NCBI RefSeq assembly: GCF_021233435.1
Contig: NZ_CP089468.1
Span: 868,001 to 932,000 of the forward strand
DNA: 64,000 nucleotides
Direction: 5' to 3'
Origin: Halobacterium noricense
GTDB lineage: Archaea > Halobacteriota > Halobacteria > Halobacteriales > Halobacteriaceae
Shown: in pieces, positions 1,462 through 16,590 of the stretch
How the letters are laid out: each line of letters begins with the position of its first letter
How positions within the stretch are numbered: position 1 is the first letter of the stretch
Translations under genes and position numbers: made by a program
The notes under the pieces: generated by a model
Database searches by the model: none
What the model saw: the letters and a program-made list of their open reading frames with translations, nothing else
Told to the model about the DNA's origin: nothing

Positions 1462-2208
1462 ATGGCGAGCATTCGCACCAAAACGGAGTTCGACCTCGAA
1501 AATCCGACGCTCGTCGAGGGGCTGCCGGGCGTCGGGCTCGTCGGCAAAATCGCCACCGACCACCTCGTCGACGCCTTCGAGATGGAGTACGTCGCGAGCG
1601 TGGACTGCCAGAACATCCCCCGCGTCTCCGTCTACGAGGAGGACGCGCGTGACGTCCTCCCGCCGGTCCGGCTGTACGCCGACGAGTCCCGGGACCTGCT
1701 CGCGCTCCAGTCGGACGTACCGCTGGCCCGCGACACCGGCGGCGCGTTCGCGGACTGCATCACCGAGTGGCTCGCGGACAACGACGCCACGCCGCTGTAC
1801 CTCAGTGGCCTCCCGATGCAGAACCTCGACCCCTCGAACGTCCCCGACGTGTTCGGCATCGCCACCGGTGACGCCGCGTCCCGTCTCGACGCCAACGACA
1901 TCGGGACGCCACCCGAACGCGGCCTCGTCAGCGGTCCGACGGGTGCGCTCATCAACCGCGCGGCCGAGAGCGACATCGACGCCATCGGACTCGTCGTCGA
2001 GTCCGACCCGCAGTTCCCCGACCCCGCGGCGTCCAAGCGCCTCCTCGACGAAGCTGTCGACCCGCTCGCCGACGTCGACGTCCCCACCGAGGAGCTCGTC
2101 GAGGAGGCCGAGCAGATTCGCGAACAGAAAAAGCGCCTCGCCGAGCGCATGCAGGAAGCCGAGGAGGAGGAGTCCACGCAAGCGCGCCCGATGCGGATGT
2201 TCCAGTAG
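1462..2208 (+). CDS. PAC2-family proteasome assembly chaperone homologue
   Basis: A 248-residue protein of the PAC2/PbaB-like superfamily, whose members assist proteasome assembly or act as ATP-independent chaperones. The N-terminal LVEGLPGVGLVGKIATDHLV segment is characteristic. The C-terminus (about 205-248) is a charged Glu/Lys/Arg helix ending in PMRMFQ. The start is ATG at 1462, preceded by a TATA-like TTTAAG at about 1431-1436, which fits a short-leader or leaderless transcript. The proteasome beta gene is 42 kb away, so genomic context does not add support. Confidence 0.85.
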   Translation: MASIRTKTEFDLENPTLVEGLPGVGLVGKIATDHLVDAFEMEYVASVDCQNIPRVSVYEEDARDVLPPVRLYADESRDLLALQSDVPLARDTGGAFADCITEWLADNDATPLYLSGLPMQNLDPSNVPDVFGIATGDAASRLDANDIGTPPERGLVSGPTGALINRAAESDIDAIGLVVESDPQFPDPAASKRLLDEAVDPLADVDVPTEELVEEAEQIREQKKRLAERMQEAEEEESTQARPMRMFQ

Positions 2209-2264: not shown

Positions 2265-2523
2265 CGTTCGACAGAAATGCACCGACCGGGAGTCTCGCGA
2301 GCACAGCGAGCGAGACATCGGTCGGAAACGACCGGCGGGAGTGCACCGACCGGGAGTGAGCAGTCCGAAAGACTGCGAACATCGAAAGACGCCACGCGTC
2401 TTTCGGGATTTGAACCGTTGTGAGACGTTCCTGCTCGCTACGCTTCGCGGGCTGCGACTCACAGGGTTCAGAATCCCTGTGCATTTCGTCTCACTCCGTT
2501 CGACAGAAATGCACCGACCGGGA
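2265..2523. repeat. Duplicated tRNA-Gly 3' ends with intervening hairpins
   Basis: A 27-base sequence at 2265-2291 recurs exactly at 2497-2523. It covers the last 14 bases of tRNA-Gly plus 13 bases beyond its 3' end. A third copy of the acceptor end, GCACCGACCGGGA, lies at 2343-2355, and a T-arm fragment CGGGATTTGAACC at 2404-2416. Between them are hairpins, including one at 2383-2405 with 10-base perfect arms around CAC. The 3' end of a tRNA gene is a usual target of site-specific integrases, so the two 27-mers may be old attachment sites. Confidence 0.75.
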
Positions 2524-2581
2524 TTTGAACCCGGGCCATGAGCTTGGAAGGCTCAGGTCCTAGCCACTAGACCATCGGTGC
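2510..2581 (-). tRNA. tRNA-Gly (anticodon TCC)
   Basis: A 72-base cloverleaf on the minus strand with a perfect 7-bp acceptor stem (GCACCGA with TCGGTGC), discriminator A at 2510, anticodon stem TGAGC/GCTCA with loop CTTCCAA, and T arm CGGG-TTCAAAT-CCCG. The anticodon TCC reads GGA and probably GGG glycine codons. No intron is present and CCA is not encoded. Partial copies of both gene ends lie on either side. Confidence 0.95.
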
Positions 2582-2609
2582 GCTGCGCTTCGCTTGCGCG
2601 CCGTGGCTC

Positions 2610-2696
2610 GCAAAACATTCGGTTTTGCTCACCATCGGTGCTCGTTCCACTCGCACCGCGCATCGGCGAAATCCGTTCGCCTCAACATCGGTGCTC
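2610..2696. repeat. Copies of tRNA-Gly 5' end alternating with hairpins
   Basis: On the 5' side of the tRNA gene the first 11 bases of the gene recur at 2631-2641 (ACCATCGGTGC on the plus strand), and a shorter copy CATCGGTGCTC lies at 2686-2696. Each follows a small inverted repeat: GCAAAAC/GTTTTGC at 2610-2628, and GGCGAA/TTCGCC at about 2665-2681. The stretch 2582-2728 has no credible gene. Confidence 0.65.
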
Positions 2697-2728
2697 ACGT
2701 GCCAGTTCCTCCCGGTCGCTTAAGGGCG

Positions 2729-3424
2729 TTACTCTTCGCCGTGGACGACGCCGTAGCAGTTCCCGCTGGCAGTGAACGTTTCGGCGACGGCGAGCGAGCT
2801 GGCCGCGAGGTCCGCGCGGAACTCCTCGGGGCTGTAGACGTGGTAGAAGCGCGGGACCGTCTCGCCGCCGGGGAGCGTCCAGTCGACGGTGGTGTCGAAT
2901 CCCTCCACGCTGATCTCACTGCCTTCGGCCGTTCGACTTTCCGAGGGGTTTCGCGCCTCGCGGTCGAATTTGTCGTGGGTGGTGCTCCACGCGCTCACGA
3001 GGGCGTCGCCGTCGGCGGTGAGCACGCGCGCGAGTTCGTCGAGGCTGGCGACGCGGGCGTCCCGGTCGGGGAGGTGGTGGATGGTCGCGATGTACACTGC
3101 CAGGTCCGCGACATCCGCGGCGAGCGGGAGGCGTTCGGCGTCGCCGGCGACGAGGGCCGCGTCGAAATCGTGGTCGGCGGCGCGCTCGCGAGCTTCGTCG
3201 AGGAGGCCGCGGCTGGCGTCCACGCCGACTGCGCGGTCGGCGCATTCCGCGAGTAGTTCGGTGTGGCGGCCGTTCCCGCAGCCGACGTCGACGGCGACGC
3301 TGCCGGTGCGGTCGGCGAGGAACGTCTCGATTTCCGGCCACGGGTACTCGCGGGTCTTCGAGAAGTGCTCGGCGATGCGGTCGTAGGTGTGGTGGATGTC
3401 AGTAGTGTCAGTCACGAGAGTCAC
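2729..3424 (-). CDS. Class I SAM-dependent methyltransferase, Trm9-like
   Basis: A 231-residue methyltransferase with the SAM-binding motif VAVDVGCGNGRH and the acidic VGVD strand. The N-terminus (TYDRIAEHFSKTREYPWPEI) and the later FYHVYSPEEF segment resemble the Trm9/ALKBH8 group, which finishes wobble-uridine modification in tRNA, so a tRNA substrate is possible but unproven. The chosen start is GTG at 3424, which overlaps the pilC stop as GTGA. A second GTG lies three codons later. The overlap makes it the third gene of the pilB-pilC operon, although no functional link is obvious. Confidence 0.75.
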   Translation of the reverse strand: MTLVTDTTDIHHTYDRIAEHFSKTREYPWPEIETFLADRTGSVAVDVGCGNGRHTELLAECADRAVGVDASRGLLDEARERAADHDFDAALVAGDAERLPLAADVADLAVYIATIHHLPDRDARVASLDELARVLTADGDALVSAWSTTHDKFDREARNPSESRTAEGSEISVEGFDTTVDWTLPGGETVPRFYHVYSPEEFRADLAASSLAVAETFTASGNCYGVVHGEE

Positions 3425-5535
3425 CCGAGGAGGACGAACGTACCGTACGCGAGCGCGAGCATTACAGTGGCGTGTTTCGCGCCCGCCTTCACGCTTCCCT
3501 GTCCCATTTGCCCGGCGACGAGCCCCGAGCAGACCGCCTGCACGAGCCCCGTGTGGAAGAAAACGAGGCTGTACGCGTCCTTCGTGGCTTGCGTGAGTTG
3601 GGCCGTCCGCGAGAACGCGCCCGAGCCACCCCCACCGGGGAGCTGGTCGGTGGATGCGGTGGCGTCCACGACCGGGATGTTCGGGATGAAGATGACGTCG
3701 AGCGCGACGATGATGGCGAAGAAGACGAAAAAGGAGATGTAGATGACGACGAGGTACGTCAGCAGTTCGCTGCGGCGGTCGCGTTCGAGCCGCCGGGTCG
3801 CCTTCGCTTCGTTGGCGGCGATGCGCAGGACGGGGCCGAGGTCGCCGCTGGCCTGCATCGCGTTCGTCGTCAGCGTCACGACGCGGGAGATGGCGGGGGT
3901 GTCCGTGCGGTCGCGGAAACGGCCGAACGCGTGCTCGACGCGTGCGCCCCACTGCACGTCCGCCCACGTGCGTTCGAGTTCCGTGGTGAGCGCGCCGAGG
4001 TCGCTGCCGACGACGCGCCCGAGGCTCTGGACGACCGGCATCCCGACCTCGTTCGTGGACGCGAACCGGTCGAGGAAGTCCGGGACGCCCGCCTCGACGG
4101 CTTTCACGCGGCCTCGGTGGAGTTCGTATGCGATCGTGAACGTCCCGAGCACGAACAGCGTCGCGTGGACGAGCGGGTCGTCGTACGCCGTGAGGTCGGT
4201 GACGCCAGCCGACGCGAACGGCCACCACCGGACGACGAGGTAGAGCCCGGCGAGTGGCGTCGTCGCGTACAACAGCATGGTCGGGGATTCGCGGACGACC
4301 GACAGCGGGTTGCGCAGCCGGTAGAGTATCGGCCGCAGCGTCTCGTAGACGTCGAGGCGCTGGCGATTGAGCTCCGTCTCCGTCGCCGTGCCCGCGGTCT
4401 CCCCACCGTCCGTGCGCGCCGCCGACCGCCGCGGGATGGACTGGAAGCGCGTGGCAGCCGCCGACGCTTCCTCGCCGGTGACCGTGCCGCCGGTCGCGGT
4501 CTCGGTGATGCTGTCGAGGTAGACCACGAACCCGAGCGTCGCCATCGGAATCAGCAGGTACGCGGTGAACTGCAGGAACGTCAGCGTGTCTCCGAGCGTG
4601 AGACCGACGACGACGAGGATGGTGATGAGGAACAGCGGGCCGGCGACCAGCAGCGTGACGTAGGCCTCCGCCAGCGTCGCGAGCAGTTCGAGGAACTGCG
4701 CCTGCTGGGCTTCGGCTTCCTCCGCGTAGTAGTCGTACTGGCGCTCGAGGAACCCCGGGAGGTTGCGGCCGCTCTGGAGGACGCTCGTGAGGTTCTCCGC
4801 GAACTCCGAGAGTTCCTCGCTCGGCGTGCGCTGACCGAGCCGGCCGAGCGCGCGCAGGATGTCCGCACCGTACATGTCGACGTCCTTGACGACGATGGCC
4901 ATCTCCTCGGCGCTCTCCCCGTAGACGTCGCGGTTGCGCGCGAGAATCCGCAACACCTCGGGGAGCGCCATCCCGCTCCGCGAGAGCGCGTAGAGGAACG
5001 CGACCGTGCGCTCCATCGAGACGTCGATGCGGCGCTCGCGCTCGCCCGCCCGGTAGCTCGGCATCGACCACCGGAGCTGGTAGGCGGCGTACGCCGCCAG
5101 CACGCCCAGTGTCGCGCCCGAGGCGAGGAAGAGCACGAACAGTTCGCTCACCGCGAACCCGCCGACGCCGTCCACGAACAACCCCTGTACGGCTGCGGGG
5201 AACCGCGACTGGAGGCTCGCGGGGGCGCTCCCGAGGAACACGAGCACGCTCGCGACGAGGTAGACGCCGAGGATGCTGCCCGCGAGCGCGCCGACCGTCG
5301 CGTAGAAGAACGTCCGCGCGGCGTACACGCGGTACGTCTGCGGGACGTGTGCGCCCTGCAGCGCGGCGACCTGCTCGGGGTTGGCTTCCCGGCGGCGACG
5401 CGCGAGCCCGCCGAACGCCGCCAGCGACACCCGAGAGACGAAGCGGTCTATCGGACGGGCGACCGGCGCGGCCGCGAGCGCGAACAGGACGCCGAGCACT
5501 GCGACCAGCGGCGCGAAGACCAGTGGCGACGCCAT
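3421..5535 (-). CDS. pilC: Type II secretion/archaeal pilus membrane platform protein (PilC/TadC family)
   Basis: A polytopic membrane protein of 704 residues with two T2SSF-type halves. The first cytoplasmic helical domain covers roughly residues 160-270 (SMERTVAFLYALSRSG), and the second roughly 470-590 (GVPDFLDRFASTNEVG). Each is followed by a pair of membrane helices, and two more helices lie at the N-terminus. Such proteins anchor the assembly ATPase and the growing type IV pilus in the membrane. The start is ATG at 5535, straight after the pilB stop. A GTG at 5550 would overlap pilB by 14 bases. No pilin or prepilin peptidase lies in the window. Confidence 0.88.
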   Translation of the reverse strand: MASPLVFAPLVAVLGVLFALAAAPVARPIDRFVSRVSLAAFGGLARRRREANPEQVAALQGAHVPQTYRVYAARTFFYATVGALAGSILGVYLVASVLVFLGSAPASLQSRFPAAVQGLFVDGVGGFAVSELFVLFLASGATLGVLAAYAAYQLRWSMPSYRAGERERRIDVSMERTVAFLYALSRSGMALPEVLRILARNRDVYGESAEEMAIVVKDVDMYGADILRALGRLGQRTPSEELSEFAENLTSVLQSGRNLPGFLERQYDYYAEEAEAQQAQFLELLATLAEAYVTLLVAGPLFLITILVVVGLTLGDTLTFLQFTAYLLIPMATLGFVVYLDSITETATGGTVTGEEASAAATRFQSIPRRSAARTDGGETAGTATETELNRQRLDVYETLRPILYRLRNPLSVVRESPTMLLYATTPLAGLYLVVRWWPFASAGVTDLTAYDDPLVHATLFVLGTFTIAYELHRGRVKAVEAGVPDFLDRFASTNEVGMPVVQSLGRVVGSDLGALTTELERTWADVQWGARVEHAFGRFRDRTDTPAISRVVTLTTNAMQASGDLGPVLRIAANEAKATRRLERDRRSELLTYLVVIYISFFVFFAIIVALDVIFIPNIPVVDATASTDQLPGGGGSGAFSRTAQLTQATKDAYSLVFFHTGLVQAVCSGLVAGQMGQGSVKAGAKHATVMLALAYGTFVLLG

Positions 5536-5536
5536 A

Positions 5537-7186
5537 CTACTCGGCGACACCCGGCGCGTTCACGACGACGTCCTCGTCGAATTCGGCCTGGACGCGGTCG
5601 ACGACGCGCTGCGGGTCGGCGTAGTACTCGTTGATGACGGCCGTGAACTGCCGGTAGTCCGTGACGTCCTGCTCGGTGAGGTACCGGAGGACGCGCTTGC
5701 GGTTCCGGAGTTCGCGCAGCAGTTCGCCCCGCGACCAGCCGCGCTCGTCCCGAATCTCGTCGAGCACCACCGAGTCGCGCTGCTCGAAATCGTCGTCAGT
5801 GGGGTTCCACTCGAACGCCGTCGAGTAGTCGAGGTCGCCGGTGCGCTGGTCGATGCCCTCGATTTCCGCGATAACGCGGTTCCGGCGCACGCGCTCGCCG
5901 CCGACGTGCGTGAGCGTCTGCACGCAGAGGATGTCGAGGCTCTGAATCATCGCCCGCGGGACGTTGATGGGCTCGTTCTCCAGGCGGTTGATGACCGTCT
6001 GCACGCTGTCGGCGTGCATCGTCGAGTACGTCGTGTGGCCGGTGTTCATCGCCTGGAACAGCGTGATCGCCTCGTCGCCGCGCACCTCGCCGACGATGAT
6101 GTACTCGGGGCGGTGGCGCAGCGCCGAGCGCAGCAGGTCGTACATCGTGACGTCCTCGCCCTCGCCGATGGACTCTCTGGTGACCGAGGAGAGCCAGTTC
6201 TCGTGAAACAGCGTCAGTTCGCGGGTGTCCTCGATGGTGAGCACCTTCGAGCGCGGCGGCACGAACATCGAGATGGCGTTCATCGACGTCGTCTTCCCGG
6301 AGGCGGTGCCGCCCGCGAACAGCAGGCTCTTGTTGGACTCGATGGCGAGCCAGAGGTACGCCATCTGGTCGAGGTCGAACGTGTTGTAGTCGACGAGCGT
6401 CGCGGGCGTGAACGGGTCCTCGCTGTACTTCCGAATCGTGAACGCCGACCCGCGCGGCGTGACTTCCTCGCCGAGCGCGAGCTCCGCGCGGGAGCCGTCC
6501 GGGAGCGTGGTCTCCGTCACGGGGTCGCCGATGGAGATGTGGCGGCCGGACTGCTGGGCGAGGCGCACGACGAACCCGTCGAGTTCCTCCTGCTCGTAGG
6601 AGACGTTCGTCTCCACGTCCGTGTACTGGTCGTGGTAGACGAACAGCGGGACGCCGTAGCCGTCGCAGGAGATGTCCTCGATGTGGGGGTCGCGCATCAG
6701 CGGGTCGAGCTTCTCGAACCCCTCGAAGGCGCGGTGAAGGTAGTAGAACAGCCGGTAGAACGCGTTCGGACCGACGTCGATTCCGTACTCCTCGACGAGC
6801 CGCTTCATCTGCCGCTTCAGGACGGCTTCGGGGTCGTCGGGCTCGTACTCGGCGTCGTAGATGAGCGCGTCCCGGATGTCGTCGTACAGCGTCTCCAACA
6901 GCTCCTGCTCGAAGTCGTCGAGCGCTGGTTCGACGACGTGGTAGCGGTACTCGTCGTTCTCGGCGTCGTGGCCGACGTAGACGAACGCGTACGGCGCGTG
7001 CACCCAGTAGCGGTCGACCTCCTCGTAGCCGTCGAGGCCGTCGAAGTCGACCAGCGGCCCGTGGGCGGCGGGGTCGTACTCGACGAGTTCGACCGTGGAC
7101 CCGCGGACGACGTCGACGACGCGCTCGGCGCGCTGTCGGACGGCTTCGAGTTGCCGGTCGATGTCCGCGAGGAAGTCGTTGGGCAT
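5537..7186 (-). CDS. pilB: Type IV pilus/secretion assembly ATPase (PilB/GspE family)
   Basis: The cytoplasmic motor ATPase for archaeal type IV pilus assembly, 549 residues. Walker A is GGTASGKTT at about 292-300, the Asp box is TIEDTREL, Walker B is IIVGEVRG at about 363-370, and the His box is [11 protein letters not shown]. The N-terminal 150 residues are very acidic. It is the first gene of a pilB-pilC-methyltransferase operon on the minus strand. A TATA-like TTTAAG lies about 30 bases before ATG 7186. It may serve adhesion pili or another secretion filament. Confidence 0.92.
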
Positions 7187-7248
7187 CGATTACTACCTCC
7201 ACGTTCGCCCGCGTCACCTTAAAGGCTGGCTGCCGGACCGCCGCCGGG

Positions 7249-8175
7249 CTACACGACGCCGTTCGCGAGGCGCTCGCCCTCGGCGATGCGGCGGACGTTC
7301 TCGCGGACGAGCGCCGCCATTCTCCGGGGGTAGTCGCGGGTCGCCGCGGCCGCGTGCGGCGTCACGACCACTTCGTCCATCTCCCACAGCGGCGAGTCCT
7401 CGGGCAGCGGCTCCGTCTCGAAGACGTCGAGCGCCGCGCCCGCGAGGTCGTCGGCTTCCAGCGCGTCCACGAGCGCGTCCTGGTCGACGACCGGGCCGCG
7501 CGCGACGTTCACGAGCACCGCATCGTCGCGCATCGCGTCGAGTTCGGCTTCGCCAATCATGCCCGCCGTATCGTCGGTGAGCGGCACCGCGAGCGCGACG
7601 AACTTCGCGTCCGCGATGGCCTCGTGGAGGTCCGGGCTCGGGTAGACGGTGTCGACGTGGTCGACGGGCGTCGGCGTGCGCTTGACGCCGACGACGTCCA
7701 TCCCGAGCGCGTCCGCCCGCGCCGCGATGCCCTGGCCGAGCGTGCCGAGGCCGACGACACAGAGCGAGGAGCCGGCGAGCGTGAACGGTTCGTCCCACGC
7801 TGGCCACTCCCAGTGCTTCTCAGCCTGCTGGTCGCGGTACGCGTGGAGCCGGCGCGCGAACGAGAGCATGTAGCCGGCGACGGTCTCGCCGACGCTGTCG
7901 CCGTGCGTGCCCGTGCTGTTCGTGAGCCGGATGCCCGCGGCTTCCAGGTCGTCGAACGGGAACCGGTCGACGCCCGACTGCACGGAGTGAATCCACTCCA
8001 AGTCGGCGTCGAGGAAGGCGTCGTCGTACGCGAACGTCACGAGCGCGTCGACGTCGTCGAGGTCGTCGGACGTGACCACGGTCACTTCGGGGTCGACGTC
8101 GGCGAGTTCGTCGACCAGCACTGTCGGCGGGAACAGAGTCTCCACGGACGCGTGAATCCCGATGCGCGTTACCAT
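7249..8175 (-). CDS. D-2-hydroxyacid dehydrogenase
   Basis: An NAD(P)-dependent 2-hydroxyacid dehydrogenase of 308 residues. It shows the nucleotide-binding GLGTLGQGIA motif near residue 143, the catalytic Arg in VNVARGPVVD, Glu in DVFETEPL and His in TPHAAA. These enzymes reversibly reduce 2-ketoacids to D-2-hydroxyacids, and haloarchaeal examples accept several branched substrates. The substrate cannot be deduced here. The gene is transcribed alone, with 62 bases separating it from pilB. Confidence 0.9.
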   Translation of the reverse strand: MVTRIGIHASVETLFPPTVLVDELADVDPEVTVVTSDDLDDVDALVTFAYDDAFLDADLEWIHSVQSGVDRFPFDDLEAAGIRLTNSTGTHGDSVGETVAGYMLSFARRLHAYRDQQAEKHWEWPAWDEPFTLAGSSLCVVGLGTLGQGIAARADALGMDVVGVKRTPTPVDHVDTVYPSPDLHEAIADAKFVALAVPLTDDTAGMIGEAELDAMRDDAVLVNVARGPVVDQDALVDALEADDLAGAALDVFETEPLPEDSPLWEMDEVVVTPHAAAATRDYPRRMAALVRENVRRIAEGERLANGVV

Positions 8176-8226
8176 GTCGGGGGGTTGCTCACCCGGCCTC
8201 TACAGTTTGTCGATGCCCGTGGTAAT

Positions 8227-8457
8227 TCACCGCGTCGCGATGTACGAGATGGTGAAGAGGACCACTGCCGCCGTCGCCACGTTCACGAGCGTGAACGCCA
8301 TCGCGCCGATGAACTCCAGCCCGCCCACGACGACGAGCGCGAACAGCGCCGACAGCACCGCGTTGATTCCCTGCGCGACCCACGGGCTCCCCTCGGAGCG
8401 CTCCGCCGCCTCGCTGAACCCCACCTCGTCTCGCTCGCCGCGGTCGTCTTCGCTCAT
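8227..8457 (-). CDS. Small two-helix membrane protein, unknown function
   Basis: A 76-residue protein that I do not recognise. The first 28 residues are charged and acidic. Two hydrophobic helices follow (about 31-50 and 54-73), ending in a short IATR tail, so it is probably an integral membrane protein. It is divergent from the small zinc protein at 8539. The length, codon use and clear hydrophobic pattern support a real gene. Confidence 0.65.
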   Translation of the reverse strand: MSEDDRGERDEVGFSEAAERSEGSPWVAQGINAVLSALFALVVVGGLEFIGAMAFTLVNVATAAVVLFTISYIATR

Positions 8458-8538
8458 ACGTCGAATCGCGGGGGTGGCGCACTTAGCTCTTGGCCGGCGG
8501 AACCCGGGAACTAAGGCAGTCGAATGCTATGATTAGAC

Positions 8539-8778
8539 ATGGGCATCGTCAACAAGGTTTCGGCCGCGCTGTCGGGGAGCGCGGGGTCGGGGGCGGACGA
8601 CGTGGAAGTCGACGCCTCGCGGGGTGCGTACTGGTGTGACGACTGCAGCGTCCGCGTGCGGGACGTAACTATCGAGGACGAGGGACTGGACCGCGACGAG
8701 GCAGGCACGCCGCTGTGTCCGGACTGTGGCGACCCGATGCGATTCGAGCGCACGTACGCCGACGGCTGCGCCTGCTGA
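8539..8778 (+). CDS. Small zinc-ribbon-like protein
   Basis: A 79-residue protein with two Cys pairs, WCDDC (about 33-36) and CPDC (about 62-65), spaced like a zinc ribbon, and a terminal CAC. Haloarchaea carry many such short two-CPXC proteins, mostly of unknown role and some regulatory. The gene ends one base before the stop of the CobW-type gene on the opposite strand, so the two are convergent without a gap. A role in metal sensing is only a guess from that neighbour. Confidence 0.7.
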   Translation: MGIVNKVSAALSGSAGSGADDVEVDASRGAYWCDDCSVRVRDVTIEDEGLDRDEAGTPLCPDCGDPMRFERTYADGCAC

Positions 8779-10008
8779 CTACTGGGTCGCGGGCTCGGGC
8801 TCCCGCAGCACGACCTCCGCCTCGTTCTCCGTGCCGAACGGACCGTCCGGGAGCGGCGCCACATTCTCCCACTCTTCGTCCGTGACGAGCGCGTCGTCGA
8901 GCCGCTCCCGGAGCGCTGCCTCCTCGACGTCCGTCCCGATGACGACGAACTCCGTCCGGCGGTCGCCGTGCTCGTCGTCCCACTCCAGGCTCGGGCGGTT
9001 CGACCGGTAGAGGTCCTGTTCGACCTCGGGCAGCGACGCAATCCACGGGCCGCGCGCGGTCACGCGCACCGACGGCCCGGCCTGTCCGACGGTCTGCCGG
9101 AGGTCGTTGCCCGCGACCCACAGCGTCCCCTTCGAGCGCACGACGCCGTCTGGGAGTGTTCGTAGGACTTCAGCGACTCGCTCGGGGTGGAACGGCCGCC
9201 GTGCCCGGTACGTGAACGACGACACGCCGTACACCTCGTCGGGGTGGCGGTGGCCGTGGTGTTCGTCCTCGTCGTGGCCGTGGCCCTCGTGGTCGTCCGA
9301 GTCGAGCGCGCGCTTCCAGCCGGGGAGGTCGCCGACCTCGCTCTCGTCGAAGCGCTCGACGTCCAGCAGCCACGACGGGGCGACTTCCGAGAACGACGTG
9401 CGCACCGTGTCTGCGTCCGGCTGGAGCGCCGCCACCAGCGCCTCGGCTTCGTCGAGTTCGGCGTCCGTGCAGAGGTCGACCTTGTTGAGCACGACCGCGT
9501 TCGACACCTCGATTTGCTCCACGAGGAGGTCCGACAGCGGCCGGCCGTCCTCGTCGGTGCCGACACGCTCGGGCGTGCCGTCGCCGCCGAACGTGTCCAC
9601 GAGCAGCCGACTGTCCACGACCGTCACGAGGCCGTTCACGCGATATTTCGCGGCGACCCGCGACTCGGTGGTGAACAGCCGCGCCACGGGCGCGGGCTCG
9701 GAGATGCCCGAGGATTCCACGACGAGGTGGTCGAAGTCGCGGTCGCCCGCGAGCCGCACCACCGCGGTTTCGAGGTCGTCCTGGAGTTCACAGCAGATGC
9801 AGCCGTTCGACAGCTCCGCGACGCCCTCGGCGACGTCTAATTCCGAGCCCTCCGCCACGAGGTCGGCGTCAATATTCACGTCGCCCATGTCGTTGACGAG
9901 CACGGCGACGTCGCGGTCGCCCGAATTGGCGAGCAAGTGATTCAGTAGTGTCGTCTTCCCGGCCCCGAGACTCCCCGACAGTATCGTCACCGGACTCCGT
10001 TCGCCCAT
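8779..10008 (-). CDS. CobW/COG0523 family GTP-dependent metallochaperone
   Basis: A GTPase of 409 residues in the P47K/CobW family, which delivers metals such as zinc or cobalt to client proteins. It has the P-loop GSLGAGKTT at about 12-20, the metal-binding CICC at about 70-73, NKVD for guanine specificity, and a C-terminal CobW_C domain from about 270. A His/Asp/Glu-rich loop lies between the domains (about 238-262) and should bind metal. The start is ATG at 10008. The open frame continues upstream of it with no family sequence. Confidence 0.88.
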   Translation of the reverse strand: MGERSPVTILSGSLGAGKTTLLNHLLANSGDRDVAVLVNDMGDVNIDADLVAEGSELDVAEGVAELSNGCICCELQDDLETAVVRLAGDRDFDHLVVESSGISEPAPVARLFTTESRVAAKYRVNGLVTVVDSRLLVDTFGGDGTPERVGTDEDGRPLSDLLVEQIEVSNAVVLNKVDLCTDAELDEAEALVAALQPDADTVRTSFSEVAPSWLLDVERFDESEVGDLPGWKRALDSDDHEGHGHDEDEHHGHRHPDEVYGVSSFTYRARRPFHPERVAEVLRTLPDGVVRSKGTLWVAGNDLRQTVGQAGPSVRVTARGPWIASLPEVEQDLYRSNRPSLEWDDEHGDRRTEFVVIGTDVEEAALRERLDDALVTDEEWENVAPLPDGPFGTENEAEVVLREPEPATQ

Positions 10009-10068
10009 GCGTGTGAGTACGTGCCAGTCGCCTTGAACCTCGTGCTTCTCGGGGCCGCTCGCCGGGCA

Positions 10069-10342
10069 GTGTTCAGATAAGCAGACGAAAGTAGCGGAGA
10101 CGACGTTGCCTTTTGAAAGCCCTCGGCAGTCTCGACTCCCGCGGCTCGCTGCGCGCGTTCGCTCCCGCTGGTCGCTCACGTGCTTACTTCGCCGGGGTTC
10201 GTCGAGACCACCTCGCCCTTTCAATCCGCCGGAAATCTCCGATTTCCGAGGCCTCGGGAGAGCGTTGCTCTCCCGGCGACCACCAGGGAATCGGCTGATT
10301 CGACGGCTGAAGCTGCAGTCAGACCAATCCTTATCTGAACAC
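10069..10342. mobile_element. MITE-like non-coding element with 13-bp terminal inverted repeats
   Basis: The left end GTGTTCAGATAAG (10069-10081) is the exact reverse complement of the right end CTTATCTGAACAC (10330-10342). An 11-base direct repeat, CCGCTCGCCGG, flanks it at 10055-10065 and 10345-10355 and may be a target duplication. The 274-base interior has no credible gene. It contains triloop hairpins at 10230-10248 (8-base arms, TCC) and 10255-10275 (9-base arms, GTT). A related block lies at 16188-16590. The rest of the gap 10009-10403 holds only the promoters of the flanking genes. Confidence 0.7.
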
Positions 10343-10403
10343 CACCGCTCGCCGGCGGACGACCGCGACAGCTTTTACCGCGCGAGGCCGTACCACCGAT
10401 ACG

Positions 10404-10700
10404 ATGAACGTCGCCGAGCGGATCGCGGCCTACCGGGAAGTCGTCGAGGAGTGGCTGCGCGGCCTCTACCACGGCATGATTTCCCACCCGGCGTACGAGA
10501 AAATCGAGAAGGAAGCCGAGGACATCGAGGACGCGTTCCTGCTGGCCTGTTTCCCGGACGCCTTCGGCATTCCCTCGCCGGTCTCGTACTACACTGCCGA
10601 GATTCTACCGTACATCGAGGACGAGTTCGAGGCGTGGGAGCGACGCCTCTGGGACCGCCAGACGATGCTCGAACGCAAGGGCCAACAGTACCACTTCTGA
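10404..10700 (+). CDS. Conserved haloarchaeal-type small protein, unknown function
   Basis: A 98-residue acidic, helical, soluble protein that I do not recognise (YREVVEEWLRGLYHGMISHPAYE near the N-terminus, ending KGQQYHF). It carries no signal peptide or metal motif. A TTTTA at about 10374-10378 lies 26-30 bases before ATG 10404, as for leaderless genes. Its stop overlaps a micro-ORF that in turn overlaps the Get3/ArsA-type ATPase gene, so the three look like one operon. A role near membrane-protein targeting is possible from context only. Confidence 0.72.
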   Translation: MNVAERIAAYREVVEEWLRGLYHGMISHPAYEKIEKEAEDIEDAFLLACFPDAFGIPSPVSYYTAEILPYIEDEFEAWERRLWDRQTMLERKGQQYHF

Positions 10701-10774
10701 TGACCGCGACACCACCACGCCGACCGCTCGCACAGCGACCGACCGACAGCCCGACCCCGGAGGGGACACGGTGA
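10700..10774 (+). CDS. Possible 24-residue micro-ORF linking two genes
   Basis: ATG at 10700 shares its A with the TGA stop of the preceding gene, and its own TGA at 10772-10774 overlaps the GTG start of the ATPase. The peptide is basic and proline/threonine-rich and resembles nothing I know. The double overlap suggests that ribosomes terminating on one gene could pass through it to the next. It may instead be chance in an intergenic stretch where the ATPase start is really reached directly. Confidence 0.3.
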   Translation: MTATPPRRPLAQRPTDSPTPEGTR

Positions 10775-11745
10775 AGCCGTTCGTCTTCTTCGGCGGGAAG
10801 GGCGGCGTCGGCAAGACGACCGTCTCGTGTGCGTACGCGCAGAAGTGCGCGGACGCGGGCGTCGAAACCCTCGTCGTCTCCACGGACCCCGCCCACTCCG
10901 TCTCGGACGTCTTCGACCAGCAGTTCGGTGACGCCCCCGAATCGGTCGAGGGCATCGATGGGCTCTCCGCGCTCGAAATCGACCCCGACGAGGAGGTCAC
11001 CGCGCACCTCGACGACATCCGCAACCGGCTCTCCGACCAGGTGTCGGCGTCGATGGTCAACGAAATCAACAAACAACTGGAGATGGCCCACCAGACGCCG
11101 GGTGCGTACGAGTCCGCGCTGTTCGACCGCTTCGTCGAGGTGATGCGGAACAGCGACCCCTACGACCGCGTCGTCTTCGACACCGCGCCCACCGGGTCGA
11201 CGCTGCGGCTGCTCGGCCTCCCCGAGTTCCTCGAATCGTGGGTCGAGCGCCTGATGCACAAGCGCCGGCAGAGCATCGACCTCTTCGAGAAGGCCGCGGT
11301 CGGCAACAACGAGCCGCGGCGCGTGATGGACGGCGATCCCGTGCTGGCGCGCCTCCAGGAGCGCAAGGAGTTCTTCGAGTTCGCGGGCGGCGCGCTCCGC
11401 GAGGACGCCGCGTTCTTCCTCGTGTTGAACCCCGACCAGCTCTCCGTGAACGAGACCGAGCGCGCCATCGCGGACATGGACGACGAGGGGCTCGCGGTCC
11501 GGGGCCTCGTCGCGAACAAGCTCACGCCGTCGCCGGACGACGACGAGAACGGCCGCGGCGCCCGCTACCTCCAGGACCGCGTCGAGACCGAGCGCGAGCG
11601 CCTCGCCCACGTCCGGGAGTCGCTCTCCCCGCCGCTGCTCGCGGAGATTCAGTCCCGCACCCGCGAAGTGAAGGGCGACCTCCTCACTGAGGTCGCCGAC
11701 GAACTCGACGTCGAGGTCGCCGTCGAGGAACCCGCGTTCGTCTGA
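10771..11745 (+). CDS. ArsA/Get3 (TRC40) family ATPase
   Basis: A SIMIBI-class ATPase of 324 residues. The deviant Walker A is GGKGGVGKTT at about 8-17, switch I is STDPAHSVSDVF, and switch II is DTAPTGSTLRLL. Homologues either power arsenite export or, in the TRC40/Get3 branch, shield tail-anchored membrane proteins. A single ATPase domain without an ArsB neighbour favours the Get3-like role, and the methionine-rich groove region cannot be judged by eye. The start is GTG at 10771, in agreement with the usual MKPFVFFGGKGG N-terminus. Confidence 0.88.
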   Translation: MKPFVFFGGKGGVGKTTVSCAYAQKCADAGVETLVVSTDPAHSVSDVFDQQFGDAPESVEGIDGLSALEIDPDEEVTAHLDDIRNRLSDQVSASMVNEINKQLEMAHQTPGAYESALFDRFVEVMRNSDPYDRVVFDTAPTGSTLRLLGLPEFLESWVERLMHKRRQSIDLFEKAAVGNNEPRRVMDGDPVLARLQERKEFFEFAGGALREDAAFFLVLNPDQLSVNETERAIADMDDEGLAVRGLVANKLTPSPDDDENGRGARYLQDRVETERERLAHVRESLSPPLLAEIQSRTREVKGDLLTEVADELDVEVAVEEPAFV

Positions 11746-11896
11746 CCGGCCGGTCTCACAGTGGTGACAGCCCGGTGCCCTCGGCTTTAGCCGTGGGAGG
11801 AAGCGCGTCCGCTCGGTGACCCAACCACCGGCTACGGCAGGACTGGCCCCCTCGTCCTTCAGAATCCTTTTGAATCACTATATCTGCGTATGATGT

Positions 11897-13137
<1,241 letters not shown>

Positions 13138-13160
13138 CGGTGGGTTAGCTTACTAAGAGG

Positions 13161-13182
13161 CGAACGTTTAAGTGGACGTTCG
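13161..13182 (+). promoter_or_regulatory. Inverted repeat overlapping the cstA TATA box
   Basis: CGAACGT at 13161-13167 and ACGTTCG at 13176-13182 form a perfect 7-bp inverted repeat with an 8-base spacer. The TATA-like GTTTAAG lies inside it and ends about 40 bases before the cstA ATG. A repressor bound here would block TBP/TFB, so this is a good operator candidate. It abuts the right end of the tnpB element. Confidence 0.5.
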
Positions 13183-13211
13183 GTAATCAGTGTCACGAAG
13201 GTACGTTACAA

Positions 13212-15065
13212 ATGACACAGGTAATATGGATTGTGGCAGCGGTCTTGGTCACGTTCTCGGTGGGGTACGTGGGGTACTCGAAGTACCTCTCCCGATTCGT
13301 CGACCTCGACAACTCACGTGACACGCCCGCCCACAAGTACGAAGACGGCCAGGAGTACGTTCCGGCGAAGAAACCAGTACTGCTCGGACACCACTTCTCC
13401 AGCATCGCGGGCGGCGCGCCCATCGTCGGCCCGATTACGGCCGGCGCTATCTGGGGATGGGTGCCCGCACTCGCGTGGGTCGCCGTCGGCAACCCGCTGA
13501 TGGGGGCCGTCCACGACTTCATCTCGCTGTCCGGCTCGATGCGACACGAGGGGAAGTCCATCGGCTACATCATCGGCGAGTACGTCGGCGAACGCGGGAA
13601 GAACATGCTGCTGTGGTTCGCGTTCATCACCATCATCCTCGTCGTCGCGGTGTTCGCGCTCGTCGTGGGTATCGTGCTGAACGCGTACCCGTCGGCAGCG
13701 ACCGCGAGCTTCGTGTACATCGCGCTCGCGGTGCTGTTCGGCGTCTACCTCTACCAGCTCGACGGCCCGTTCATCCCGGGGACCATCGTGTTCGTCGCCG
13801 GCGTGTTCGCGGGCGTCTGGCTCGGTATCCAGTACCCGTTCGCGTTCTTCGAGCTGGCAGGTGACGCAGCACACCCCGCGAGCACGTTCATCCTCTTCGA
13901 GGGAACGGGCTCGTGGGTGCCCGGTGCCGGCGCGCTCGGCGGCAACACCGCCGCCTGGGTGCCGGTGATTCTGCTGTACGCCGCGCTCGCCAGCGCGCTC
14001 CCGGTCTGGGTGCTGCTCCAGCCGCGCGACTACCTCTCGTCGTTCCTGCTGTACGCGGGTGTCGGCGGCGCGCTCGTCGCTATCGTCGTCGGCACGTTCC
14101 TCGGCACGTCCAGCCAGCCGCTGGTCATCTCCGAGAGCATCGAGCCGTTCACCGGCTTCCTCGGAGTCGAGAGCGTCTCGCCGTATCCGTTGTTCCCGCT
14201 GCTGTTCGTCACCATCGCGTGCGGGACCATCAGTGGCTTCCACTCGCTGGTCTCCTCCGGGACGACCGCCAAGCAGCTGAACAAGGAGAGCGACGCGCGC
14301 CTCATCGGCTACGGCGGCATGCTCGGTGAAGGCCTGCTCGCCGCAGTCGCGCTGTCCACGCTCGCCATCGCCGGCATCGCCTCGGACGCGGCCGCCGGCG
14401 GCATCGGCGGCGCGCTCCCGAACTTCGCTGCAGGTGGCGGCGTCATCCTCACGAGCCTCGGCATCCCCGCCAGCTACGGTGGGCCGTTCATGGCGCTCGT
14501 GCTCGTGAGCTTCCTGCTCACGTCCACCGACACGGCCGCGCGCCTCGGCCGCTACATGATGGAGGAAATCGTCGGGACGCAGGGCAGCGGCACGGACACC
14601 GGCTTCTCGGGCGGTATCGGTTCGTTCGCCCGCGGTCGGTACACGAACCCCGTCGTGCAGTGCGGTATCGCGTACGTGCTGGTCATCTCCGGCGAGTGGG
14701 CGACCCTCTGGGGCCTGTTCGGCGGCGCCAACCAGCTGCTCGCCGCGCTCGCGCTGCTCACCGGGACGGTGTGGCTCGCCAACTGGGACGAGTCCAAGCA
14801 GCTCGTCAGCACGGGCGTGCCGATGGCCATCATGGTCGTCATCACCGTCCTCGGGCTCTCGTGGCTGGCGTTCTACGAGAACCTCTACGTGAACCTGATT
14901 CAGGGCGGCGCGACCGGCCTCGGCGGTCAGGTTTCGGCGGCGGTTCAGATGGTGCTCGCGGTCGTGCTCATCTACCTCGCGCTGTCGCTGGTGCGCATCG
15001 GCTACGACAACATCTCCAGCGTGCGCGGTGGCCGCGAGCCCGCAGCGGAACCGAGCGACGACTAA
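13212..15065 (+). CDS. cstA: Carbon starvation protein CstA-family transporter
   Basis: A 617-residue membrane protein with many hydrophobic helices and the CstA signatures GHHFSSIAGGAPIVGPITAG (about 59-78) and GNPLMGAVHDF. Bacterial homologues take up peptides or pyruvate during carbon limitation. The haloarchaeal substrate is not known to me. The gene stands alone, with the tnpB element ending about 60 bases upstream and a palindrome around its TATA box. The ATG at 13212 follows a leader of about 15-20 bases. Confidence 0.9.
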   Translation: MTQVIWIVAAVLVTFSVGYVGYSKYLSRFVDLDNSRDTPAHKYEDGQEYVPAKKPVLLGHHFSSIAGGAPIVGPITAGAIWGWVPALAWVAVGNPLMGAVHDFISLSGSMRHEGKSIGYIIGEYVGERGKNMLLWFAFITIILVVAVFALVVGIVLNAYPSAATASFVYIALAVLFGVYLYQLDGPFIPGTIVFVAGVFAGVWLGIQYPFAFFELAGDAAHPASTFILFEGTGSWVPGAGALGGNTAAWVPVILLYAALASALPVWVLLQPRDYLSSFLLYAGVGGALVAIVVGTFLGTSSQPLVISESIEPFTGFLGVESVSPYPLFPLLFVTIACGTISGFHSLVSSGTTAKQLNKESDARLIGYGGMLGEGLLAAVALSTLAIAGIASDAAAGGIGGALPNFAAGGGVILTSLGIPASYGGPFMALVLVSFLLTSTDTAARLGRYMMEEIVGTQGSGTDTGFSGGIGSFARGRYTNPVVQCGIAYVLVISGEWATLWGLFGGANQLLAALALLTGTVWLANWDESKQLVSTGVPMAIMVVITVLGLSWLAFYENLYVNLIQGGATGLGGQVSAAVQMVLAVVLIYLALSLVRIGYDNISSVRGGREPAAEPSDD

Positions 15066-16187: not shown

Positions 16188-16590
16188 GTGTTCAGATTTG
16201 TATACAAACCTGATGGAGAAGACGTAGCCTTCTGAAAGCCCTCGGGCGTCTGCGCTGTCGGAAGACGTTCCGGCTCACTGCGTTCGCGGGCTGCGACTTC
16301 CGTTGTCACGCTTGCGGTGCTCGCGTAACTCCCGCGACTCGCTGTGCTCCTCAGTCGCTTTGCTCCCTGCGGTGCTTGCATCGTCCTCAGAACGCTACGC
16401 GTTCTGATGGGTGGTTCGAGAGGACGAAGTCCTCTCGTCATCCCGAGAGACGCCGTCGGCGTCTCTCGGTCGACTGCGGAAGACGCGACGCGTCTTCCGA
16501 ACGTCGGGGTTCCCGCAGACGCCCTCGCCCTTTCAATCCGCCAGGGAAATCGGTTGATTCACTGGCTAGTTTCAGTAGTGTTCGGGCCTC
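16188..16590. mobile_element. MITE-like, hairpin-rich non-coding block related to 10069-10342
   Basis: This 400-base gap has no gene. Its left end GTGTTCAGAT (16188-16197) and the following GAGA-GACGT-GCCTT-TGAAAGCCCTCGG pattern match the 10.07 kb element. So do CTCGCCCTTTCAATCCGCC (16524-16542) and AAATCGG-TGATTC near its right end. The right inverted repeat is not intact. In between lie four perfect triloop hairpins: 16387-16407, 16417-16437, 16443-16469 (12-base arms) and 16477-16499. A near-perfect 20-base palindrome centred on TTTGTATACAAA lies at 16193-16212. Confidence 0.6.

Follow-up and report, generated by a model that had tools for sequence, protein, structure and literature searches.

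The window analysed here is a stretch of 64 000 nt (64 kb) of the Halobacterium noricense genome (G000, contig C1, 868001–932000), and near its start lies a tRNA-Gly(TCC) gene with partial copies of itself on both sides. Exact copies of the last 14 nt of the tRNA are found at 2278–2291 and 2342–2355, and a search allowing up to two mismatches gave no further copy in the window besides the gene itself. The T-arm segment GGTTCAAATCCCG was found again outside the gene at 2404–2416 only, and 2265–2291 is an exact 27-nt repeat of 2497–2523. All exact copies in the window are confined to the tRNA-Gly locus and lie on the same strand. The parts of the locus are as follows, where X(+) and X(-) denote direct and inverted copies of tRNA sequence and A and B are hairpins; the evidence for each part is given in brackets.

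2265–2291, minus: last acceptor copy and start of the native trailer TTTCTGTCGAACG, as in empty sites (empty site in G004)
2292–2341, minus: a different hairpin unit with two hairpins, CCGGTCGTTTCCGACCG and GTCTCGCTCGC..GCGAGAC (found behind tRNA-Gly with no B unit in G008, G009 and G012)
2342–2355, minus: second part of X(+), a copy of the acceptor 3′ end (exact match)
2356–2403, minus: two small hairpins dividing the T-arm part of X(+) from its acceptor part (sequence)
2404–2416, minus: first part of X(+), a direct copy of the tRNA T-arm (exact match only here and in the gene; boundary profile)
2420–2462, minus: hairpin B, a 5-bp covarying stem GTGAG/CTCAC with the conserved loop TCGCAGCCCGCGAAGCGTAGCGAGCAGGAACGT (covariance model R1, below; stem covariation)
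2464–2477, minus: X(-), an inverted imperfect T-arm copy (pairs with 2404–2416; family-wide specificity of X(-) for its own tRNA)
2480–2509, minus: hairpin A of the main unit, directly past the tRNA 3′ end, with apex CGAAC-GGA-GTGAG (sequence; layout common to relatives)
2510–2581, minus: tRNA-Gly(TCC) gene, the proposed target of all insertions (ARAGORN; Rfam tRNA, 67.8 bits)
2582–2630, minus: 5′-side unit, consisting of a hairpin, a short inverted copy of the tRNA 5′ end (∼2599–2605) and a second hairpin (sequence)
2631–2641, minus: exact copy of tRNA nt 1–11 (exact match)
2642–2694, minus: second 5′-side hairpin (∼2642–2683) and an outer copy of tRNA nt 1–11 with one mismatch (2684–2694) (sequence)

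A sequence-only reading had described a tRNA-Gly gene embedded in copies of its own ends, and the sequence search located these copies on both sides. Two of the three acceptor copies it counted are extra copies, the third being the gene's own end at 2510–2523. It noted the single 3′-side T-arm copy and the two 5′-end copies, each next to a small hairpin, and overlooked the inverted T-arm copy at 2464–2477 together with the hairpin that this forms with 2404–2416 (z = −2.95 in a DNA fold, a value reached by 2 of 200 shuffles). The interruption of X(+) by the small-hairpin pair is seen likewise at tRNA-Gly-CCC (L031) and in G002. The 5′ copies are explained by a separate unit at tRNA-Gly, and this 5′-side arrangement recurs upstream of tRNA-Gly in other genera, across several families.

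The copies are beyond chance. At 197 tRNA loci, a perfect downstream copy of the tRNA's own last 20 nt was present in 47%, against 0.2% for tRNAs of other isotypes, and upstream copies of the 5′ end (at least 11 of 12 nt) in 8.6% against ∼0.2%; since the loci were partly picked for having 3′ units, only the 5′ figure escapes this bias.

BLAST of the locus against its own genome found the segment 2404–2478 again behind the tRNA genes for Gly-CCC, Ser-GGA, Glu-TTC, Ala-CGC and His-GTG, in the last case as two in tandem. Seven aligned copies share the arrangement X(-)-stem-loop-stem-X(+), with two-sided changes in 8 of 22 predicted pairs, and were used to build a covariance model, R1, which scores 91.4 bits over 2403–2478. 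The model gave 21 matches in its own genome (E below 0.001), two of them B cores with no adjoining tRNA, and 1 to 31 matches per genome in 11 further members of the genus. Matches were obtained in 112 of 116 Halobacteria genomes sampled, covering 42 of 45 genera, with about 1 to 32 units per genome; the four genomes without units are G034, G036, G045 and G077. In a phylum-wide sample there was no R1 match in 124 genomes outside the order, and 2 of its 24 Halobacteria were also without one. A pattern restricted to the B loop and free of tRNA sequence recovered at least 79 stretches from ∼85 000 species genomes, all haloarchaeal by title. The units measure about 75–150 bp and are ordered tRNA 3′ end-A-X(-)-B-X(+). 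At the tRNA-Gly locus only the tRNA itself exceeded the gathering score in Rfam 15, and nucleotide BLAST against plasmids and phages gave short matches only, or none. The family is apparently undescribed, being absent from Rfam and from the open-licence PMC papers searched.

B-type hairpin cores also occur away from tRNA genes. A nested hairpin cluster at 16230–16560 of the window lies between inverted copies of GGCGTCTGCG and includes, at 16260–16301 (minus strand), a B-type core GGAAG-TCGCAGCCCGCGAACGCAGTGAGCCGGAACGT-CTTCC with neither T-arm copies nor a tRNA. A second tRNA-less core of this type is at G000:C1:2664722-2664763 (L055). Beside hairpin clusters in L054, L055 and L059, and at 16520–16545 of the window, there is a dispersed sequence close to GGCGGATTGAAAGGG(C)GAGG, possibly another repeat family.

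The units are anchored to tRNA genes. Of 143 R1 matches, 129 follow a same-strand tRNA (31 isoacceptors) on its 3′ side at a distance of no more than 700 bp, and six of the remaining 14 are weak opposite-strand echoes of units already counted. Among the matches listed for the B-loop pattern, 71 of 85 are placed in this way, and most of the rest stand behind a tRNA 3′ end that is truncated or was not called. A single unit (L148) is inverted relative to its tRNA. X(+) is close to an exact copy of the 3′ end of the neighbouring tRNA, which it matches better than any tRNA of another isotype in 104 of 122 units (permutation score 2447 versus 1369 ± 28). X(-) is also specific for its own tRNA (1461 versus 1175 ± 16), resembling the neighbour's T-arm and not its acceptor. 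Across 109 units the identity block of X(+) runs from G52/G53-T54 to the mature tRNA 3′ end, giving a direct repeat of ∼20–22 bp.

Units form tandem arrays of up to five (L163), with four in L090, and in some arrays (L091, L164) neighbouring units are identical. In the L163 and L167 arrays the main unit alternates with a second class having the inner flanks GAATCAGA...CGTGGTTC, so that these arrays hold members of at least two unit families. X(+) copies farther from the tRNA in an array were not significantly more decayed (p = 0.09). The array layout is compatible with a CRISPR-like growth, in which Cas1 would copy a repeat.

Comparison of relatives, the check proposed in the sequence-only reading, showed that some sites are empty and others filled, and all of them have the tRNA gene. 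Within the genus, the tRNA-Gly(TCC) locus has a B unit in G000, G001, G002, G003, G007 and G010, the other hairpin unit in G008, G009 and G012, and no 3′ unit in G004, G006 and G011. On both flanks of the tRNA, G011 and G001 form an empty/filled pair, sharing the promoter-side sequence and the downstream gene, and at Val-cac and Arg-gcg two related species whose downstream sequence is the same have different numbers of units. For each such pair gain or loss are both possible, because the X(+) repeats also permit deletion. Repeated rearrangement, raised in the sequence-only reading, is borne out insofar as repeated insertion is involved.

Two further tRNA-Gly copies in the genus have a different composition. 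Downstream of the tRNA-Gly at 1605–1676 (minus strand) of L003 (G010), the duplicated 3′ half includes the anticodon arm, which two hairpins divide from the T-arm; such hairpins thus also enter other parts of tRNA copies. At 1443–1515 of L014 (G009), a tRNA-Gly copy, probably a pseudogene, has the hairpin GCACTGTGAGCGCCGAAGGCGCGACC in place of its 5′ half.

X(-), B and X(+) fold into a hairpin with a conserved apex and an asymmetric internal loop, where CT stands opposite mostly TNC (CT/TCC or CT/TTC in 53 of 88 units). In the variable part of stem B, 245 of 264 cells were Watson–Crick pairs, compared with 110 ± 8 after shuffling; two were G·T and two A·C. G·T pairs were rarer here than in the stems of the neighbouring tRNAs (5.1%, p = 5 × 10−4), a comparison that is based on three stem positions and does not amount to proof. 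Stem changes between close relatives were two-sided in 14 cases versus one-sided in 6, the pairs not being independent. Near the centre of the loop, 60 of 88 units have on the tRNA-sense strand the apex C-GNA-G, which is typical of DNA mini-hairpins; on the other strand it was seen in 0 of 88. Some B loops contain GCGAAGC, an exceptionally stable DNA mini-hairpin. The near absence of G·T, the one-strand C-GNA-G apex and the conserved internal-loop mismatch point to a unit recognised as a DNA hairpin rather than as an RNA. The class of DNA mini-hairpins to which the GCGAAGC type belongs has been described (PMC10527192).

Integrase elements were found at the same tRNA genes as the units, in each case with the element between the tRNA and the unit. 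A phmmer search with a single haloarchaeal integrase query gave integrase-like ORFs in 6 of 79 loci, none in an intI-like position. Integrase linkage as a general rule was rejected, given the 73 of 79 loci without such an ORF and the position of the elements. Exact matches to two B-loop patterns were absent from viral contigs. In L130 (G000:C1:221000-236000), a virus-like integrated element at ∼2325–14400 starts with a tyrosine integrase (2382–3365) adjoining a unit and itself includes five tRNA genes (Leu, Val, Ala, Thr and Leu; 8003–8535). Inside this provirus there was no unit and no inverted T-arm or B hairpin.

The units were compared with known systems. They share with integron attC sites a hairpin of two boxes separated by an unpaired spacer (here a 12-bp T-arm box, the CT/TNC internal loop and a 5-bp second box), strand asymmetry, a box that is a copy of the crossover sequence, and tandem arrays in which a box is repeated. 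However, they have no gene cassette, no linked integron integrase was seen (79 loci, one haloarchaeal integrase query), their box is the T-arm of the host tRNA and differs with each tRNA, and their loop is conserved where that of attC is variable. The integron R-box consensus, RYYYAAC/GTTRRRY, is not matched by the unit boxes, which are GTTCAAAT or GTTCGAAT, following the tRNA. The folded attP of CTXphi, recombined by XerCD at dif, also has inverted core copies around a loop and forms tandem arrays at one chromosomal site, but the units are not phage, have no dif site, use many tRNA targets and are only about 75–150 bp long. REP sequences, Rickettsia palindromic elements, MITEs and haloarchaeal PATEs are similarly short, gene-less and hairpin-forming, with many copies per genome; we know of no such palindromic dispersed element with ends matched to each host tRNA. 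The X(+) direct repeat sets the units apart from PATEs and IS605 derivatives, PATEs having no target duplication (PMC3119063). Tyrosine recombinases that target tRNA genes habitually take the block from the T-loop to the tRNA 3′ end, and the archaeal integrative elements concerned duplicate this block and leave the gene intact, as here, but are kilobase-sized and carry an integrase gene (PMC8371274). The identity block of an att scar is present in the units, whereas the same site was not found in integrative elements or viruses (L130 provirus; viral contigs, two exact B-loop patterns). Because the box consensus, presence in a mobile element and absence of target duplication each fail to agree, we file the units under none of attC, integrase scar or PATE. 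In structure and array layout they resemble attC, in the duplicated block the tRNA integrases, and in size and lack of genes the palindromic repeats.

The account that we prefer, with a probability of roughly 0.4, is that the 3′ flank consists of non-autonomous DNA-hairpin cassettes, inserted into the T-loop by a putative trans-acting recombinase in a manner analogous to integron attC. The recombinase would recognise the folded single-stranded X(-)/B/X(+) hairpin and join it to a tRNA gene at the T-loop, with a crossover near G53/T54, as the integron integrase acts on folded attC and XerCD on the folded CTXphi attP. Such a crossover would restore the tRNA and leave the old 3′ end downstream, and so add one X(+) per insertion; the layout X(+)-A-X(-)-B-X(+) is the product expected if the folded site recombines with the T-loop as attC does with attI. 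Homologous recombination between X(+) repeats would let arrays grow or shrink, and the 5′-side unit at tRNA-Gly may represent a related insertion at the gene's opposite end. Cassettes served in trans are favoured by the position of the integrase elements between tRNA and unit, the L130 element without a unit, and the viral contigs without B-loop patterns. Against this account, recombination alone does not explain the match of X(-) to its own tRNA, the two B cores without T-arms stand at non-tRNA sites of the genome, the unit boxes depart from the integron consensus, X(+) shows no significant decay along the arrays, and the similar arrangement at the tRNA-Gly 5′ end fits less well. A wider claim is more doubtful, namely that of a class-wide integron-like process by which tiny gene-less DNA hairpins, folded as single strands, would recombine with the T-loop of almost all types of tRNA gene and build arrays that carry and continually renew an inverted copy of the host tRNA.

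Template switching during replication better accommodates the resemblance of each X(-) to its own tRNA. Hairpin-primed snap-back at a tRNA gene would generate X(+)-X(-)-X(+) inverted duplications and quasi-palindrome correction would keep the stems perfect, the units being by-products made with no recombinase. This would also account for two-sided stem changes without G·T intermediates and for similar arrangements at the tRNA 5′ end. We nevertheless regard it as unlikely, as the B loop is conserved class-wide at unlinked genes, and so is the internal loop with its mismatch, which correction should erase, and the start is fixed at G53/T54. That units almost always lie 3′ of a tRNA in the same direction, with a conserved structure, would suit a structured RNA in the pre-tRNA trailer, with a role in tRNA maturation or regulation. 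The scarcity of G·T pairs, an apex of the DNA mini-hairpin type, a range of zero to five units per tRNA between related species and the lack of a matching Rfam family make such a function quite improbable.

Ordinary tyrosine-integrase scars, that is double-stranded attachment sites remaining after loss of a tRNA-targeting element, would give the T-loop to 3′ end block usual for these integrases (PMC8371274), and integrase elements do occupy the same tRNA genes. Yet integrase-like ORFs were few (6 of 79 loci, one query) and their elements lay between tRNA and unit, the viral contigs lacked both B-loop patterns, and an inverted T-arm with a conserved hairpin is foreign to such scars. This origin is decidedly improbable, and the sequence-only reading was right to see more than a simple integrase scar. 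Its other suggestion, that the flanks are decayed tandem tRNA copies, draws on the partial copies on both sides. It does not hold for whole copies, and we give it hardly any credence: the copies run sharply from T54 to the tRNA 3′ end, with this boundary fixed in 109 units and upstream tRNA sequence missing, and the same A-X(-)-B-X(+) unit is common to 31 isoacceptors.

The units are thus a sequence family, for which we found no name, that belongs to one archaeal class and is located at genes ranking among the most conserved in the cell. If the cassettes do recombine as single strands, they would be a natural case of this beyond integrons and filamentous phages, raising the questions of which enzyme acts and whether the X(+) repeats shield tRNA genes as decoy attachment sites. 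Under the same condition, the family would also account for many of the tRNA fragments beside haloarchaeal tRNA genes.
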